From the IMG/VR virus record IMGVR_UViG_3300025426_000143, positions 1 to 20,623 of that record: a DNA stretch of 20,623 bases; one strand, 5' to 3'. This stretch comes from a virus. Below, one piece after another: positions 10,255-17,597 of the stretch (position 1 is the stretch's first letter; each line of letters starts with the position of its first letter). The position numbers and the translations under genes are program-made. Under the pieces are notes generated by a model. That model was not told the DNA's origin. It was given only the letters and a program-made list of their open reading frames with translations, and did no database searches.

Positions 10255-10546
10255 ATTTGTGGGGGGTGACGTTTCACATTGTGGAATTGTAGGGGGGTAG
10301 TCAAAAGGTATTACAAAGTTATTGAGAATGGTTATGGAACAGTGTTCATGGTCACCATGGCCACGCCGTCTGTATTTGGTGGGTGGGGGTGCAGTGGGGT
10401 CGAAAAATCCCGAAAATCGGGGAAAAACTCGGGGTCATCGTGCCCCCGAGAATCAAAGGTTTCGAATAAAAACCCCATGTGTGCATAATGTAGTCAGTTT
10501 CAAGCAATGGTGCTTGGGGCGAAAACCAAACCAAAAGGAAATTATC
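10255..10546 (+). other. Long structured G-rich leader, no gene seen
   Basis: I see no convincing gene in these 292 bases. They hold several G-runs (10260-10265, 10381-10389, 10397-10400), an interrupted palindrome CATGG-TCA-CCATG (10347-10359), a hairpin CCCGA-AAA-TCGGG (10409-10421) and, just after it, the first member of the repeat hairpin family (10429-10450). A 13-base word, TGTGTGCATAATG (10478-10490), recurs exactly at 11827-11839. The AAGGAA before the first gene lies at 10535-10540. Confidence 0.55.
10429..10450 (+). repeat. Repeat hairpin copy A (variant, in leader)
   Basis: CTCGGGG (10429-10435) pairs with CCCCGAG (10444-10450) around a 8-nt loop containing TCATCGTG. It shares the ACTCGGGGTCA half of the family but lacks the conserved central mismatch and the T-run, so it is more likely a leader hairpin than a terminator. 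Confidence 0.6.
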
Positions 10547-10906
10547 ATGACATCAATCAACAAACAAAACGTGTTCGCAGTATTTCAAGATGCAGACAAT
10601 GCTCAAGCCGAGTTTGCTACACGCCTATTTGACCTCGGGGTATTCAGCAAAGCCCAAGCGATCCCGTTGGTGATCGAGTTTGTCGAGCAGAAATACAACG
10701 TGAAGGCCAAAGACGGACAGCGCGGTAAGACATTCGAGAAGGACACCGCGCCCCACACCGCGATGAAACGGATTCTCAATAACTGCTTTGAGACTGTGAA
10801 AACCCCATCGGCCGAGAAAGCCAAGAAGGATGAGGTTGAACTACTGATCGCCAAGATTAAAAAGCTATCTGAAACCGATCAAAAGCGCATCAAAGACGCG
10901 ATCTGA
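10547..10906 (+). CDS. Unknown 119-residue protein, first gene of plus arm
   Basis: The start at 10547 is preceded by AAAAGGAAA at a good distance; the frame is open further upstream to 10322, but that part is the leader. The protein is soluble and helical with a Lys-rich C-terminal half (EKAKKDEVELLIAKIKKLSE) that may form a short coiled coil. A central segment reads KAKDGQRGKTFEKDTAPHTAM. No family was recognised. As the first gene behind the strongest plus promoter it is expected to be made early. Its stop is followed at once by repeat hairpin copy B. Confidence 0.75.
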   Translation: MTSINKQNVFAVFQDADNAQAEFATRLFDLGVFSKAQAIPLVIEFVEQKYNVKAKDGQRGKTFEKDTAPHTAMKRILNNCFETVKTPSAEKAKKDEVELLIAKIKKLSETDQKRIKDAI

Positions 10907-10934
10907 ACTCGGGGTCTGGGTGACCCCCAGTTTT
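10907..10934 (+). terminator. Repeat hairpin copy B, terminator
   Basis: GGGGTC (10911-10916) pairs with GACCCC (10922-10927); outside a C-C mismatch, ACT (10907-10909) pairs with AGT (10929-10931), followed by TTTTCTGTTT. It begins right after the stop of the first gene and fits an intrinsic terminator. This is the 'C-C mismatch' orientation of the family. Confidence 0.8.
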
Positions 10935-11017
10935 CTGTTTAAAAGCGCAGGGCATCGTCCTTGCGTTGTTTCGTTCTTTGTCTAACCAATTTTCACCATT
11001 CAAAAAGGATCATCATT

Positions 11018-11266
11018 ATGCACGTTTACACATACACCATCGCAGACCATTGGCTCAGTCCCATCATCAACGGCGATTACTCAGGACTCGAAGACCACGA
11101 AATCGAAACCCTCGATGCGTTCTTGGCCGACTTGCCCAAGCACTACCATTTCAAAGCCCCAATGCACGGCGTCTGGGATGTGATCGGAGATGAAGGACAC
11201 TTTGCTCGCGATGACATCAGCGACTTGCACGCCAACTGTTTCGACTGCACTCTCACGTTCATCTAA
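11018..11266 (+). CDS. Small acidic His-rich protein of unknown function
   Basis: This is an 82-residue protein starting at 11018 with AAAGGAT upstream. It is acidic, with many His and Asp (IADHWLSPIINGDYSGLEDHE, ending in a CFDCTLTFI tail with two Cys). The opening MHVYTYTIADHWLS looks like one I have seen in small phage proteins, but I cannot name a family. It lies between repeat hairpins B and C, so it may be a single-gene transcription unit or part of a run with partial termination. Third positions are strongly C-rich, as in the following genes. Confidence 0.7.
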   Translation: MHVYTYTIADHWLSPIINGDYSGLEDHEIETLDAFLADLPKHYHFKAPMHGVWDVIGDEGHFARDDISDLHANCFDCTLTFI

Positions 11267-11517: not shown

Positions 11518-11685
11518 ATGCAACACATCCAAACCCTCGGCAAAGCCATGCTTTACCGCCGAGAATCATTCAACCACAGAACCACGCCACTCATCGAGTG
11601 GATCGTCAAAGTCAACGACTACATCGTGCGCGAATGCAACACCAAACGCGAAGCCCTCGAATGGCTTAACATCTACAAGGACTAA
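11518..11685 (+). CDS. Small unknown protein (55 residues)
   Basis: The ATG at 11518 lies 2 bp after the preceding stop, with GGAAAGGAA just upstream inside that gene. The product is basic and mixed alpha/beta: MQHIQTLGKAMLYRRESFNH, then PLIEWIVKVNDYIVRECNTK and EALEWLNIYKD. The 'REALEWLN' ending recalls small phage proteins, but no function is known. The frame has the same C-ending codon preference as its neighbours, which supports it being real despite its short length. Confidence 0.62.
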   Translation: MQHIQTLGKAMLYRRESFNHRTTPLIEWIVKVNDYIVRECNTKREALEWLNIYKD

Positions 11686-11687
11686 CC

Positions 11688-11837
11688 ATGTACACCATCA
11701 CCTACATCTACTTCACCCACGGGGACAACTACGAACACCGCTCCATCCAATGCCCCGCTCACCAACTCCAAGCCAAACTCACCCGCTTGTCCAAAGACCA
11801 CAAAGTCCGCGACATCTTTTGGGAGGTGTGTGCATAA
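11688..11837 (+). CDS. Small unknown protein (49 residues)
   Basis: The ATG at 11688 lies 2 bp after the preceding stop. The product begins MYTITYIYFTHGDNYEHRS, has a CPAHQLQAKLTRL helix and ends DIFWEVCA. It is rich in Tyr, His and Thr, with C-ending codons throughout as in the neighbouring genes. No clear Shine-Dalgarno lies directly before it, so it may depend on coupling. Its stop is followed within 4 bp by repeat hairpin D. Confidence 0.58.
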   Translation: MYTITYIYFTHGDNYEHRSIQCPAHQLQAKLTRLSKDHKVRDIFWEVCA

Positions 11838-11840
11838 TGA

Positions 11841-11868
11841 ACTCGGGGTCACCCTGACCCCCAGTTTT
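11841..11868 (+). terminator. Repeat hairpin copy D, terminator
   Basis: ACT (11841-11843), C-C mismatch, GGGGTCA (11845-11851), loop CCC, TGACCCC (11855-11861), AGT and a TTTT run to 11868. It ends the three-gene group. A further small hairpin, ACGTCA-TTTT-TGACGT (11869-11884), follows at once. Confidence 0.85.
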
Positions 11869-11917
11869 ACGTCATTTTTGACGTGTCCAACATTATGCGG
11901 TACTCAGTTATTAAAAG

Positions 11918-11945
11918 ACACGCGGAAACCCGCGTGTTTATTGGC
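11918..11945 (+). terminator. Hairpin in the left arm, possible bidirectional terminator
   Basis: ACACGCGG-AAAC-CCGCGTGT (11918-11937) is a perfect 8-bp stem followed by TTATTGG on the plus strand. On the minus strand CTTTTAAT follows. The right arm carries a degenerate version (mirror of 12117-12140) that no longer forms a perfect stem. Confidence 0.6.
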
Positions 11946-12063
11946 TTTCGCGGTTTTGTGTCCAACTAGCTAGCATTTATATTTCTTTATTAAAAAGTAA
12001 AAGTATATATATATACCTCTTCCGAAACTCCGACAGTTCGCAGAACTTGGAAAGAAAAAGTTG

Positions 12064-12072
12064 TGATATAAT
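12064..12072 (+). promoter_or_regulatory. Extended -10 promoter for the 12190 gene
   Basis: TGATATAAT (12064-12072) is a perfect TATAAT with the extended -10 TG one base ahead. No good -35 is seen at 17 bp, as is usual for extended -10 promoters. It sits at the inner edge of the right arm of the inverted repeat, so a protein binding the arms could control it. Transcription would start near 12079 with a leader of about 110 nt. Confidence 0.65.
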
Positions 12073-12189
12073 GATTTTTAAATGACGGCTAATCGGACAC
12101 TTCACGCGAAAACCTAGGATTCATGCGGTTCTCCGACTGTCTTTTATTTTCACCATGCCGAATAATCTTGGACACTTTAAGGATTTCAA

Positions 12190-12903
12190 ATGGATTATGC
12201 ACACTACATACGCAAAACACCCAACGAATTGCACAACATTCTCGCCAAAAGACGCATCCCTGACGAGGAAAAAGAACGCATAAAGATGATTGTTGCCACT
12301 CAAAAAGCCGAACGCCGATCCAATCAGCAACGCCAAACCCAACTCAAACTCCAATGGGAACGACTCACAGTACCTCTTGCGCACGAACTCCACATCATCA
12401 AGACCAACCTCAACTACAAATCCGAAGACCCCGACAACCCCCGAATCCTCGCATGGCGCGCCTATGAAATGGTGCTGACCAAACTCCGCAAAGATTATGC
12501 ACGCTACAAAGACATCGACAAAATCCTCCCGAGCAAGCTCGCCAAGGAAAAGAACTTAGAAAACGACGGCTTGCATTGGGTCGATTGGGTTCCGCAAAAG
12601 ATCAAGGACAGAGTTTATGCGTACTTTGCAGACATCCCCCACATCAAGCACGCCAAAAAGAAACACCCGTTCGTGCGCTCAGTCCCACAGAACATCCACG
12701 ACAAACTACAAAAGCGACTGATCAAGAGCGCCGACACCGAACTCACACGCTTGGAGAGACTGCAAGTGGTCGAACCCACACCCGAGCGCCAAGACCGCAT
12801 CGACATCTTAAAGAAAGCGATCAAAGAACTATCGCAAACAACCCGACACGAACCCTTGCCGAACACTTGGCACGGGCTACAAGACAACTGGGGGTCAACC
12901 TGA
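12190..12903 (+). CDS. Basic helical protein of unknown function beside the inverted repeat
   Basis: The 237-residue protein is strongly basic and almost all helical, with long Lys/Arg/Glu/Gln runs (LAKRRIPDEEKERIKMIVA, then AERRSNQQRQTQLKLQWERL) and several Trp. A C-terminal helix (RLERLQVVEPTPERQDRIDI) follows. There is no Cys pair, membrane segment or known catalytic motif. It is the first gene behind the extended -10 promoter and directly follows the candidate origin or operator region. A DNA-binding or replication-accessory role is possible, but only by position and charge. The stop codon (12901-12903) and last codons lie inside repeat hairpin E. Confidence 0.7.
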   Translation: MDYAHYIRKTPNELHNILAKRRIPDEEKERIKMIVATQKAERRSNQQRQTQLKLQWERLTVPLAHELHIIKTNLNYKSEDPDNPRILAWRAYEMVLTKLRKDYARYKDIDKILPSKLAKEKNLENDGLHWVDWVPQKIKDRVYAYFADIPHIKHAKKKHPFVRSVPQNIHDKLQKRLIKSADTELTRLERLQVVEPTPERQDRIDILKKAIKELSQTTRHEPLPNTWHGLQDNWGST

Positions 12904-13545: not shown

Positions 13546-14868
13546 ATGAAAACTATGTATACAACCGAAGACCGATGGGCAATGGAGGAGAGCATCCATA
13601 TGCTCCAGAAGATACTCAAGCGCTCCCGCCCTTGGTATCACCGAGAGTTCTACAAGTATCCGATGCACCCCGCCATTGCGGACGCGATCAAATTAACACG
13701 GCCTGACAACTGGCATCAGTTGGTGCTTGAGCATCCGCACCAATCCATCGGGGATCAGACCATGATCGCTTTTACCCGTGACGACAAGAGCGGGGACGCG
13801 GATCGCCAAGTCAAGACATCCATCGGCAAGTATCTGCGCCGACACTTTAGCGCCCTTGGTGACCATCAGATCAGAGACATCACCGCGCTCCATGTGGTGA
13901 CTGGGGTCAAGATCGTGCACACGATGGCCGAGATGCTGCATCACCTGATGCGCGGGCCACACTCATGTATGAAAGAAAGCAACTGGAACACGCATCCCTA
14001 TGAGGTCTATGACCCCGCGCTTGGGTGGTCGATGGCGGTGCGTGAGGAAGGGGACGATACCAAGGCGCGTGCTTTGATCTACACCGATGCGGATGGCAAC
14101 AAGAAGTTCGTGCGTTCGTACAACAAAGACCCGAACGGCGGGTACTCGCACAGCGACACGCAACTTGAGGCGTGGATGCAGAATCAGGGCATCGCCAAGG
14201 TGAGCGGATGGGATGGCGCCAAGATCAAGGCCATCGAGAACAAGGGCAATGTTATCGGGCCATACATTGATGGTCATGATCGTGACTGCAAGTACAGCGC
14301 AGACCGAATGACGTTCACGATCTGTGATGGTGATGGCGAGTACCGCATGGAGAGCACGAACGGGTATGCCAACGAGCGTAGCCAGTACGAGTACACCTGC
14401 GAGGACTGCGGGGACGGGTTCGATGATGGCGACGGCTACTGGGTCGGTTACAGCGAGGACACCCACATCTGCATGAGTTGTTGCAACAACGACTATATCT
14501 ATGTCACAGGACGCAGAGGCAATCAATACTACATCAGGGATCGTTACTCGGTCGAGGTTAACGGCGAGTACTATGACGAGGACTATCTGTCTGACAACGA
14601 CATCGTGTGTGACGTGGACGGCGAGCACCGCCATCTTGATGATGTAGTCTACATCGAGAGCGAGTCCGAGCATTACCCCGATGATGACGACCGCATCTGC
14701 TACGCCGAGGACACCGAGCAATATGAGTTGCGCGATAACTGTTGGATGTGTACCCACACCGATAAGTACTACACCAATGAGACTAATTATGTAGATATCG
14801 ATGGTGCGTTATTTCACCCCGACTGTGCGCCCGAGACAAACGAAACAACCAAAGGAGAATCAGAATGA
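13546..14868 (+). CDS. Cys-rich putative zinc protein with a phage-family N-terminus
   Basis: The 440-residue protein has two parts. Residues about 1-210 include a GPHSCMKESNWNTHPYEVYD segment followed by LGWSMAVREEGDDTKARALIYT, a pattern I recall in unnamed phage proteins ('SCM...HP-EVY...ARA'). Residues 283-430 are very acidic and carry Cys/His sites for zinc: CEDC (285-288), CMSCC (309-313), C355, C385, CWMC (399-402) and H424/C427. These could form two or more treble-clef or LIM-like knuckles. The function is unknown; nucleic-acid or protein binding is the usual job of such modules. The ATG follows AAAGAAAGAGAG, and the gene overlaps the peptidase start by 4 bp, so the two are coupled. 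Confidence 0.8.
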   Translation: MKTMYTTEDRWAMEESIHMLQKILKRSRPWYHREFYKYPMHPAIADAIKLTRPDNWHQLVLEHPHQSIGDQTMIAFTRDDKSGDADRQVKTSIGKYLRRHFSALGDHQIRDITALHVVTGVKIVHTMAEMLHHLMRGPHSCMKESNWNTHPYEVYDPALGWSMAVREEGDDTKARALIYTDADGNKKFVRSYNKDPNGGYSHSDTQLEAWMQNQGIAKVSGWDGAKIKAIENKGNVIGPYIDGHDRDCKYSADRMTFTICDGDGEYRMESTNGYANERSQYEYTCEDCGDGFDDGDGYWVGYSEDTHICMSCCNNDYIYVTGRRGNQYYIRDRYSVEVNGEYYDEDYLSDNDIVCDVDGEHRHLDDVVYIESESEHYPDDDDRICYAEDTEQYELRDNCWMCTHTDKYYTNETNYVDIDGALFHPDCAPETNETTKGESE

Positions 14869-15980
14869 ATGTACTAATGCAAACCCTGAACCACGCGCTA
14901 TCTTTGAAGCGCCCACACAACTCCTCAACCAATGAGGACTTCACGCTGTGGCTTGCCGAGATGCTACCGCCTGACGTGTGCGAGCGAGCGTTCCTCGATG
15001 GATGCAACAACCTACACATCGACACTCGCGTCAATGATTCGAACCGCACGCTGTTCGTAGCGCACGTGGATACTGTGCACAAAGACGAGGGCATCAACAA
15101 GATCAAGAAGACCCCAACCTACTGGCACGCAGACGGCGCGCAACTGGGCGCGGATGATGGGGCGGGGGTTGCCATGCTCATGCACTTGATCGACTCGGGT
15201 GTTCCCGCTTACTACATCTTTACTCAGGGCGAGGAGTGCGGGGGTATCGGTGCTAAGTTCGTGGCCGACAACTTCCAAGACTTGCTCGGTGAGTTTGATC
15301 GTGCCATTGCGTTCGACAGAAAGAACATCGATAGCGTGATCACGCATCAGGGCTATGGTCGGTGTTGCTCCGATGAGTTTGGGACGGCACTTGCTCAGGC
15401 GCTCAATGAGGATGACCGCTTGATGTACGCAACTGACGACACCGGCGTGTACACCGATACTGCGGAGTTCACCGACATCATCCCCGAGTGCACCAATGTG
15501 AGCGTAGGTTATTTCTCGGAGCACACACTCAATGAGTGTCTTGACATCGTGCACTTTGAGACGCTTGCCGAGCAAGTCGTGAAGATTGACTGGGACTCTT
15601 TGCCCACGACGCGTGACCCATCGGTCAAGGAAAGCAAATGGGATGACTACACATCGGGTGTGTACTACGGCGGGTGGGCAAGCTACGGCAAAGCCAACAA
15701 TCACAACTCAGCGTATCAGGACTATATGCGTTGGGATGAGGACATCAGTTCGCTTGACTTGCAAGATGCGATTACGGATGCCATCGAGGGTTACCCCGAG
15801 TGGCTGATCGAGATGATGGCTGAGAGCGTGTACCCCGAGGCGGTGACCACGGCGGTGAAGTTCATCGACAAGCGCCGACTGACTGTGGATGTGTTACAAG
15901 ATGCGCTCCACGATTCGTGGTCGGCCGATCCGTCTCAAGTGTTGGCATCGCTGTTCGACAGCGCGTATATGGTTGTGTAA
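14865..15980 (+). CDS. Di-zinc aminopeptidase-like hydrolase (M28/M20/M42 type)
   Basis: The 371-residue protein has all the metal and catalytic residues of co-catalytic zinc peptidases in order: LFVAHVDTV (H67, D69), LGADDGAGVAML (D97), FTQGEECGGIG (E123 as base, E124 as ligand), AIAFDRK (D151) and SEHTLNE (H220). About residues 1-240 form the catalytic domain. The last 130 residues are an acidic helical extension not typical of the family. No signal peptide is present, so it should act in the infected cell. The substrate could be a peptide, an acylated amino acid or a peptidoglycan fragment. Its start overlaps the zinc-protein stop (ATGA), with AAAGGAGAA upstream, and it ends at terminator F. 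Confidence 0.82.
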   Translation: MNVLMQTLNHALSLKRPHNSSTNEDFTLWLAEMLPPDVCERAFLDGCNNLHIDTRVNDSNRTLFVAHVDTVHKDEGINKIKKTPTYWHADGAQLGADDGAGVAMLMHLIDSGVPAYYIFTQGEECGGIGAKFVADNFQDLLGEFDRAIAFDRKNIDSVITHQGYGRCCSDEFGTALAQALNEDDRLMYATDDTGVYTDTAEFTDIIPECTNVSVGYFSEHTLNECLDIVHFETLAEQVVKIDWDSLPTTRDPSVKESKWDDYTSGVYYGGWASYGKANNHNSAYQDYMRWDEDISSLDLQDAITDAIEGYPEWLIEMMAESVYPEAVTTAVKFIDKRRLTVDVLQDALHDSWSADPSQVLASLFDSAYMVV

Positions 15981-16696: not shown

Positions 16697-16963
16697 ATGG
16701 AAATACAACTGATTGAAAACAAAAGAACACAACGTAGGAACATCCCCTACGACACAGGCAAGGTCAAGATTGGCCTGACCCACACCCCCAAACCCCCGCA
16801 GATGGATGCCCATGATGAGCTGATCCAAGCCATGTTGCTTGGCATTGAGCCGTGGGAAGATAAGTTCGTGCGCGATGCGCTCATCTACATTGCCACCATC
16901 ATAGGGGTGCTATTCTTTTTGCTAGTCTGGACAGTCGTAAGAGGAGGAACAATACATGGCTGA
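16697..16963 (+). CDS. Small membrane protein
   Basis: This is an 88-residue product with one clear membrane segment near the C-terminus (ALIYIATIIGVLFFLLVWTV). The N-terminal 60 residues are soluble and hold Pro-rich KPPQMDAHDEL and IEPWEDKFVRD stretches. Only about 8 residues follow the membrane segment, so the long part is probably cytoplasmic or periplasmic depending on insertion. No holin or spanin family was recognised. GAGAGAAACC precedes the ATG; the end overlaps the next gene by 8 bp. Confidence 0.65.
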   Translation: MEIQLIENKRTQRRNIPYDTGKVKIGLTHTPKPPQMDAHDELIQAMLLGIEPWEDKFVRDALIYIATIIGVLFFLLVWTVVRGGTIHG

Positions 16964-17597
16964 TCTGCAAACCGCGCTCTCCCAAGCGCTCACACAATGG
17001 GAACCCCAACCTGAAATCACAGAGGAAAAACAAATGGAAACTAAAAAGAATTTATTCGAGCCAACCAACAATGTCTCTCGCGAGACGTTCAACTACATCT
17101 TGCACAGCAAAGGGTGCACAGTCAACGACATCACCAAGGAAATGACCAAGAAAGGTTACAAGGAATCTTCGGTCTCTTCGCTGACATATCAGATGCTCAA
17201 GCAAGGCATGATAGGGCGTAGGGAAGACGGCAAGCTGGAAGCCCTGATACCCGCGTACACGCCCGTCAAAACGCGCAGACCCGCCAAGAAAAAGGCCAAG
17301 AGCAAGGCAACAATCACAAAGCTATCGAATGCCCCCATTCAACCCAAGCAACAGAGTCAACATCATCAAGCTCATCAACCTCATCAACCTCATCAACCCA
17401 CCCAAAACATTGCCGCGCCCCTACCCGATACTAGATACCCTGCGGTGATGTTGGACTTGGTGTGGAACGGCGATGCGGGTGAGGTAAAGATCAACAAACA
17501 GTTCTTGGTGGCTGACCGCATGGTGCAGCTTGATGGGTTGCAAGATTGGATTTATGAGTTGCAAGATTTGTATAACTTTATGGTAAAGGCGAAATGA
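16956..17597 (+). CDS. Putative winged-helix DNA-binding protein with a His-Gln-Pro linker
   Basis: In the 213-residue protein, residues about 40-100 read like a winged helix (TFNYILHSKGCTVNDITKEM, then SSVSSLTYQMLKQGMIGRRE and a 'DGKLEALIP' wing). A very basic stretch (RRPAKKKAKSK) and a tandem HQP repeat (encoded at 17371-17397) form a flexible linker. A C-terminal domain of about 60 residues follows (LDLVWNGDAGEVKINKQFLV). It is probably a regulator. GAGGAGG precedes the ATG at 16956. A second in-frame ATG at 17034 with GAGGAAA before it could give a shorter form lacking 26 residues. Confidence 0.68.
   Translation: MADLQTALSQALTQWEPQPEITEEKQMETKKNLFEPTNNVSRETFNYILHSKGCTVNDITKEMTKKGYKESSVSSLTYQMLKQGMIGRREDGKLEALIPAYTPVKTRRPAKKKAKSKATITKLSNAPIQPKQQSQHHQAHQPHQPHQPTQNIAAPLPDTRYPAVMLDLVWNGDAGEVKINKQFLVADRMVQLDGLQDWIYELQDLYNFMVKAK
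17362..17397 (+). repeat. 9-bp in-frame tandem repeat encoding HQP units
   Basis: Three perfect copies of CTCATCAAC (17371-17397) follow one degenerate copy (17362-17370). They stay in frame and encode His-Gln-Pro-type units in the linker of the winged-helix protein. Slippage could change linker length without a frameshift. Confidence 0.8.

Follow-up and report, generated by a model that had tools for sequence, protein, structure and literature searches.

A Conserved, Strictly Symmetric Dyad Element Next to an Orphan Gene Family as a Candidate Replication Origin of Uncultured Aquatic Podovirus-like Phages

Results

A diverged inverted repeat lies between two rightward genes

The stretch of DNA analyzed here (the window) is a 20,623-bp IMG/VR fragment in which the structural genes are oriented leftward, starting from about 10.1 kb, and the rest rightward. 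Its TerL is ~50% identical to those of the Pelagibacter phages HTVC023P and HTVC027P and of the lake phage DSL-LC04. The left end encodes HNH-endonuclease-like and GNAT acetyltransferase-like proteins (737–1204 and 388–828). The gap between two of the rightward genes is occupied by a diverged, ungapped inverted repeat with its dyad at position 12029 and the following features:

11878–11990, + strand: left arm of the diverged inverted repeat (mirrored-segment score against shuffles)
11883–11888, + strand: outer half-site GTGTCC, left, −143 from the dyad
11917–11920, − strand: middle half-site GACA, left, −110 from the dyad
11930–11946, + strand: conserved motif CCGCATGAAnnCTAGCG, left copy, degenerate in the window (6 mismatches)
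11958–11963, + strand: inner half-site GTGTCC, left, −68 from the dyad
11975–12016, no strand: AT-rich least stable stretch, candidate unwinding element, off-center (−34), holding the alternating TA run
12068–12180, − strand: right arm of the diverged inverted repeat (mirrored-segment score against shuffles)
12095–12100, − strand: inner half-site GGACAC, right, +69 from the dyad
12112–12128, − strand: conserved motif CCGCATGAAnnCTAGCG, right copy (2 mismatches), 165 bp from the left copy
12138–12141, + strand: middle half-site TGTC, right, +111 from the dyad
12170–12175, − strand: outer half-site GGACAC, right, +144 from the dyad
12190–12903, + strand: gene for a 237-aa basic, predicted all-helical protein, candidate arm-binding initiator or regulator

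When mirrored segments were scored without gaps (+1/−1), 11878–11990 against 12068–12180 was the best in the region, with a score of 35. Dinucleotide-preserving shuffles of the 352-bp gap (n = 400) gave best scores with a mean of 9.5 and a maximum of 15, and the self-alignment that an earlier note on this DNA had proposed as a check thus stands far above shuffled sequence. At the dyad, 79 of 149 mirrored pairs match, compared with 55 at the runner-up center in the region. The same note had described four mirrored blocks sharing one center, GTGTCC sites 75 bp apart in each arm, and an alternating TA run in the core, and we found all of these. The blocks have a mirrored-coordinate sum of 24058, which gives the dyad at 12029; the outer pair, GTGTCCAACATTATGCGG and GTGTCCAAGATTATTCGG, matches at 16 of 18 positions, and the others are AAAAGACA, GTGTCC-N-A-N-TAGC, and CATTTA. 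The GTGTCC/GGACAC copies begin at 11883, 11958, 12095, and 12170. There is no symmetry at the dyad point itself, and no direct repeat families were found in 11600–12400.

An extended −10 promoter had also been read in the right arm. Its −10 sequence, TGATATAAT, is present, but a good −35 is absent and the place is not constant in relatives, and this reading was therefore rejected. Among the relatives' elements, no sigma-70-like promoters occur at a constant place, although the host promoters may differ from the sigma-70 type.

Six hairpins of the form GGGGTC-N4-TGACCCC (one with a mismatch) are found at 10431, 10911, 11273, 11845, 12891, and 15990, several of them right behind stop codons; the motif gives 12 strand matches, where 0.33 are expected. 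They are possibly a dispersed terminator or processing hairpin.

The element recurs, once per genome, in a large group of relatives

The element is not unique to the window: a large podovirus-like group of uncultured phages has it in about 40 contigs. Close homologues of the 12190 gene were limited to two contigs; one is identical, and the other is 97% identical over the element and keeps the whole of it, with ATGTCC as the left outer site. More diverged relatives were collected in two ways. With the portal protein as the starting point, we obtained 80 loci, and when these were scanned blindly for long mirrored segments, an element of this kind turned up ahead of TerL in a number of them (L031, L045, L054, L058, L060, L072, L073, L074, L078, L083, L085, and others). 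A search for CCGCATGAAnnCTAGC-N(6–18)-TGTC, a motif conserved among these elements, gave 36 viral-contig stretches, most of which carry the element; this set is biased to its motif, whereas the portal-based set is not. The GTGTCC-type sites, whose conservation in relatives had been set as a check beforehand, are indeed there.

Weaker, gapped versions were seen in L018, L049, L068, and L100 and a borderline one in L088/G013, and the L006 and L007 hits of the first motif scan were dismissed as chance. In L082, L084, and L027, the element seemed to be absent; a single motif copy (2 mismatches) was resolved in them, and the apparent absence probably arose because the search region began inside the element. 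In seven 54–68 kb relatives (G001–G006 and G011), the element reached the ungapped threshold (score of at least 22), and no second one was found in any of these genomes.

In the stretches examined of two distant phages, DSL-LC04 (L090, 20554–20773) and 023Pt_psg01 (L093, 7640–7862), one mirrored repeat dominates, with ~45-bp arms and a ~130-bp spacer, intergenic and without a homologue of the 12190 protein; it is perhaps an analogous site. Two isolates with a related helicase gave no convincing counterpart, the top hits in phage Rollin being N runs or terminal repeats and those in Rhizobium phage RHph_TM3_14A being weak. The part of the literature covered by an open library yielded no description of this element.

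Half-sites and the AT-rich stretch keep a fixed geometry

In the window and in most lineages, TGTC/GACA half-sites lie at about ±68, ±110, and ±143 from the dyad (about ±63, ±104.5, and ±139 in L096). Each arm thus holds three half-sites of alternating orientation, together with other conserved and lineage-specific blocks, and TGTCC/GGACA occurs 53 times in 16 elements against 7.8 expected. When the elements were stacked on their dyads, each arm read, from the outside in, TGTCC or TATCC, a 25–28-bp block peculiar to the lineage, GGACA/AGACA, AACCCGCATGAAnnCTAGCG, AAA(C/G)TGTCC, a TATCTATC-like run, and the AT-rich core. The earlier note had suggested inverted iterons. The sites are inverted, but "iterons" is not quite the right word for mixed half-sites interspersed with lineage-specific blocks.

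In about 30 elements, 163–167 bp separate the two copies of CCGCATGAAnnCTAGCG; the distance is 154 bp, one helical turn less, in L096/L115, so that the geometry varies among lineages by no more than a few base pairs or one helical turn. By arithmetic at 10.5 bp per turn, the half-site spacings of 33, 42, and 137 bp correspond to ~3, 4, and 13 turns; because these are near-integral, the sites would all lie on the same side of the helix. Such fixed helical spacing across the "loop" favors a protein acting on double-stranded DNA. In L117, around 10833–11058, both arms have the conserved motif CCGCATGAA in inverted orientation, at matching places.

In all 13 of the diverse elements compared, the least stable 40-mer was located 31–55 bp from the dyad and never on the gene side. 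A fixed AT-rich, unwinding-like stretch beside candidate protein sites, as expected of a replication origin, is thus found in every one of them. Judged from these comparisons, the element is a real, conserved dyad, apparently organized by protein.

The two arms change in concert

Within a genome, the arms are 64–81% identical to each other, compared with near-background identity between diverged lineages. The best partner of the left arm was its own right arm in 12 of 13 diverse genomes and, for the outer 45 nt, in all 13 (mean score 21.8 vs. 3.3). These results indicate that symmetry has been kept or restored during sequence turnover. A symmetric protein complex with drifting specificity, arm-to-arm copying, and arm pairing can all produce such concerted change. 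The lineage-specific block did not simply track the tree of the adjacent protein, and the 13 columns of that protein that did follow the block were not above background (26 columns went the opposite way).

An orphan gene family adjoins the element

Outward of the element, nearly every locus with enough flank carries a gene for a 206–274-aa protein homologous to 12190–12903 (25–40% identical to that of the window, with E values down to 1e-47); in L083, the adjacent gene has no more than a weak profile match to this ~240-aa family. The window gene starts 14 bp past the outermost half-site. The family alignment has an invariant core, HW-x-DW...K-x-PF-x-R. An AlphaFold2 model of the 12190 protein is all-helical and confident (pLDDT 87.6). 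Foldseek returned nothing below E 0.7 against PDB, and VIA-align matched it at the helical-bundle level only (Z 7.0 or less), which excludes no fold; in BFVD, two uncharacterized phage proteins match the model. Searches of Pfam, PHROG, NCBIfam, and PDB gave no informative match and no recognized DNA-binding fold, and PPR hits in the PDB sequence search were rejected as an effect of a 24-residue repeat. No relatives were found in the bacterial genomes and annotated phages searched.

The ~240-aa protein is among the fastest changing of the rightward array (28–64% identity across genomes, compared with 49–97% for the polymerase, nuclease, and helicases of the same genomes), as would be expected if it tracks changing sites. 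The earlier note had named the 12190 protein as an obvious candidate binder, for either an origin or an operator. Constant adjacency, fixed half-site geometry, and concerted arms lend comparative support to a protein–DNA dyad tied to this gene, although they do not settle between origin and regulator, and the gene-proximal position is equally expected of an operator.

The product of 16956–17597, fast evolving and kept in the seven relatives checked, has a weak winged-helix match (Penicillinase_R, F-93) and is a second candidate reader of the element. Of the pair of genes after the 12190 gene (13546–15980), one codes for an unknown 440-aa protein and the other for an M20/M28-like peptidase (phrog_4191); in the relative G004, the genes at the corresponding place are amidoligase-like and class II glutamine amidotransferase-like.

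The element co-occurs with a DUF927 primase-helicase

In the 54–69 kb relatives, the + strand array downstream encodes DNA polymerase A, a PD-(D/E)XK nuclease, and an SNF2-type helicase. The same array also encodes a ~965-aa DUF927 protein that matches primase/helicase families. The survey covered the relatives' contigs, the window itself being too short to contain the gene: of 14 group contigs, 11 had a DUF927 match above the cut-off, among them all eight 54–69 kb ones with the ~240-aa gene, and five more distant isolate or assembled records had none. The DUF927 gene lies about 18–20 kb from the element (e.g., they are at positions 21.5 kb and 39.9 kb of G002).

Does the base composition of these genomes also point to an origin? 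Raw GC skew has minima near the element in several genomes, and cumulative skew had been put forward beforehand as a test. The switch in skew falls together with the change in gene orientation and disappears once this is corrected for; a regression of third-position skew that accounted for gene strand showed no replichore effect at the element. GC skew was therefore rejected as evidence for an origin, which leaves anatomy and setting as the basis of that reading. Replichore skew is often missing from small phage genomes, and its absence is weak evidence against an origin.

Discussion

Several explanations could account for a dyad of this kind. The main rival to an origin is a regulatory complex, in which the ~240-aa protein or the winged-helix-like protein of 16956–17597 would bind both arms and loop or wrap the DNA, controlling transcription of the early gene array with no part in replication. 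Its attractions are the position of the element just upstream of the ~240-aa gene and within a co-directional array, the integral-turn geometry, which fits looping or wrapping, and the conservation of a winged-helix-like protein in these genomes. We nevertheless regard it as possible but rather unlikely: sigma-70-type promoters are absent from any constant place (though the host's may be of another type), the off-center least stable stretch is fixed in all elements examined, and operator dyads of nearly 300 bp are unusual.

Selection for single-strand pairing, as a long RNA hairpin or a supercoil-extruded DNA cruciform, would account for arms that change in concert, and the predicted folds of both strands are far beyond those of shuffles (z about −7), although any inverted repeat must fold so. 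On the gene strand, A.C mismatches outnumber G.T (134 to 66) and C.C outnumber G.G (80 to 10), the opposite of what an RNA stem would show; this spectrum speaks for that strand alone, and local strand composition may explain the bias. Furthermore, 20–35% mismatches persist, and neither the fixed helical spacing across the loop nor the fixed half-sites are hairpin-like. We consider single-strand pairing quite improbable and a folded RNA on the gene strand unlikely; a structured RNA family was rejected on the mismatch spectrum of the gene strand and on the lack of any Rfam match. A packaging (cos/pac) or recombination site for a terminase or recombinase is very improbable. In the window, about 2 kb separates the element from the terminase genes, but the dyad itself, where a cut would fall, has no symmetry, contig ends do not cluster at the element in the relatives examined, and the element is tied to the ~240-aa gene rather than to a terminase or recombinase gene.

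How does the element compare with known systems? DUF927 has a relative in the Rep initiator helicase of SaPIbov1. In SaPIs, the iterons of the origin are bound by Rep, apparently in the form of two hexamers (PMC7581432). Like that type of origin, the present one would combine repeated short sites at one locus with an encoded helicase of the DUF927 family, kin to SaPIbov1 Rep. Unlike it, the sites form a single, strict 300-bp dyad, the helicase gene is about 18–20 kb off, and a separate orphan protein adjoins the element; the SaPI/SCC-type arrangement of an origin beside its helicase gene is not seen in this group. A dyad with an unwinding-like stretch would suit the loading of two DUF927-type rings.

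The arrangement of the element also has parallels outside the SaPI systems. In the origins of SV40, papillomavirus, and herpesvirus (oriL/oriS), inverted binding sites flank an AT-rich core, a layout that suits symmetric loading of two helicases; the phage arms are much larger, and no homologous proteins are involved. Lambda-like phage and plasmid iteron origins consist of direct repeats of one ~20-bp unit. Shared with them are candidate protein sites by an AT-rich unwinding-like stretch and an adjacent (here candidate) initiator gene, whereas the order here is mirrored, with several different blocks per arm and, in 11600–12400, no several-fold direct repeat of one unit. Among phage repressors, 186 CI has looping or wrapping operators, which the element resembles in its symmetric sites, helical spacing, and place upstream of a candidate regulator gene; it differs in that the adjacent protein has no recognized repressor domain and an unwinding-like AT stretch is conserved.

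The explanation that we favor, at about an even chance of being right, is a dyad-symmetric replication origin to which the ~240-aa protein would bind and at which the DUF927 primase-helicase would be loaded. A dimeric or higher-order complex, most likely of the ~240-aa protein, would read the lineage-specific block in each arm and the six TGTC-type half-sites, of which each arm contributes three to the same face of the helix. The complex would join the arms across about 13 helical turns and open the off-center AT-rich stretch, where replication would start, and a DUF927-type primase-helicase, perhaps as two rings, would be loaded next. Since the start codon lies only 14 bp past the outermost site, the ~240-aa protein probably also controls its own gene.

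We know of no mapped replication origin in the abundant uncultured aquatic phages of this kind, and the adjacent ~240-aa family matches no profile searched. With somewhat less assurance, we suggest that such phages may have an origin in the form of a strict dyad read by a new initiator or accessory family, the arms being rewritten jointly so that specificity shifts fast while the geometry stays fixed. Origin recognition in these phages can be tested directly, given a shared element with constant coordinates, one candidate binder, and a helicase of a known family. If true, joint rewriting of the arms would make it possible to study how an origin shifts specificity along with its reader.
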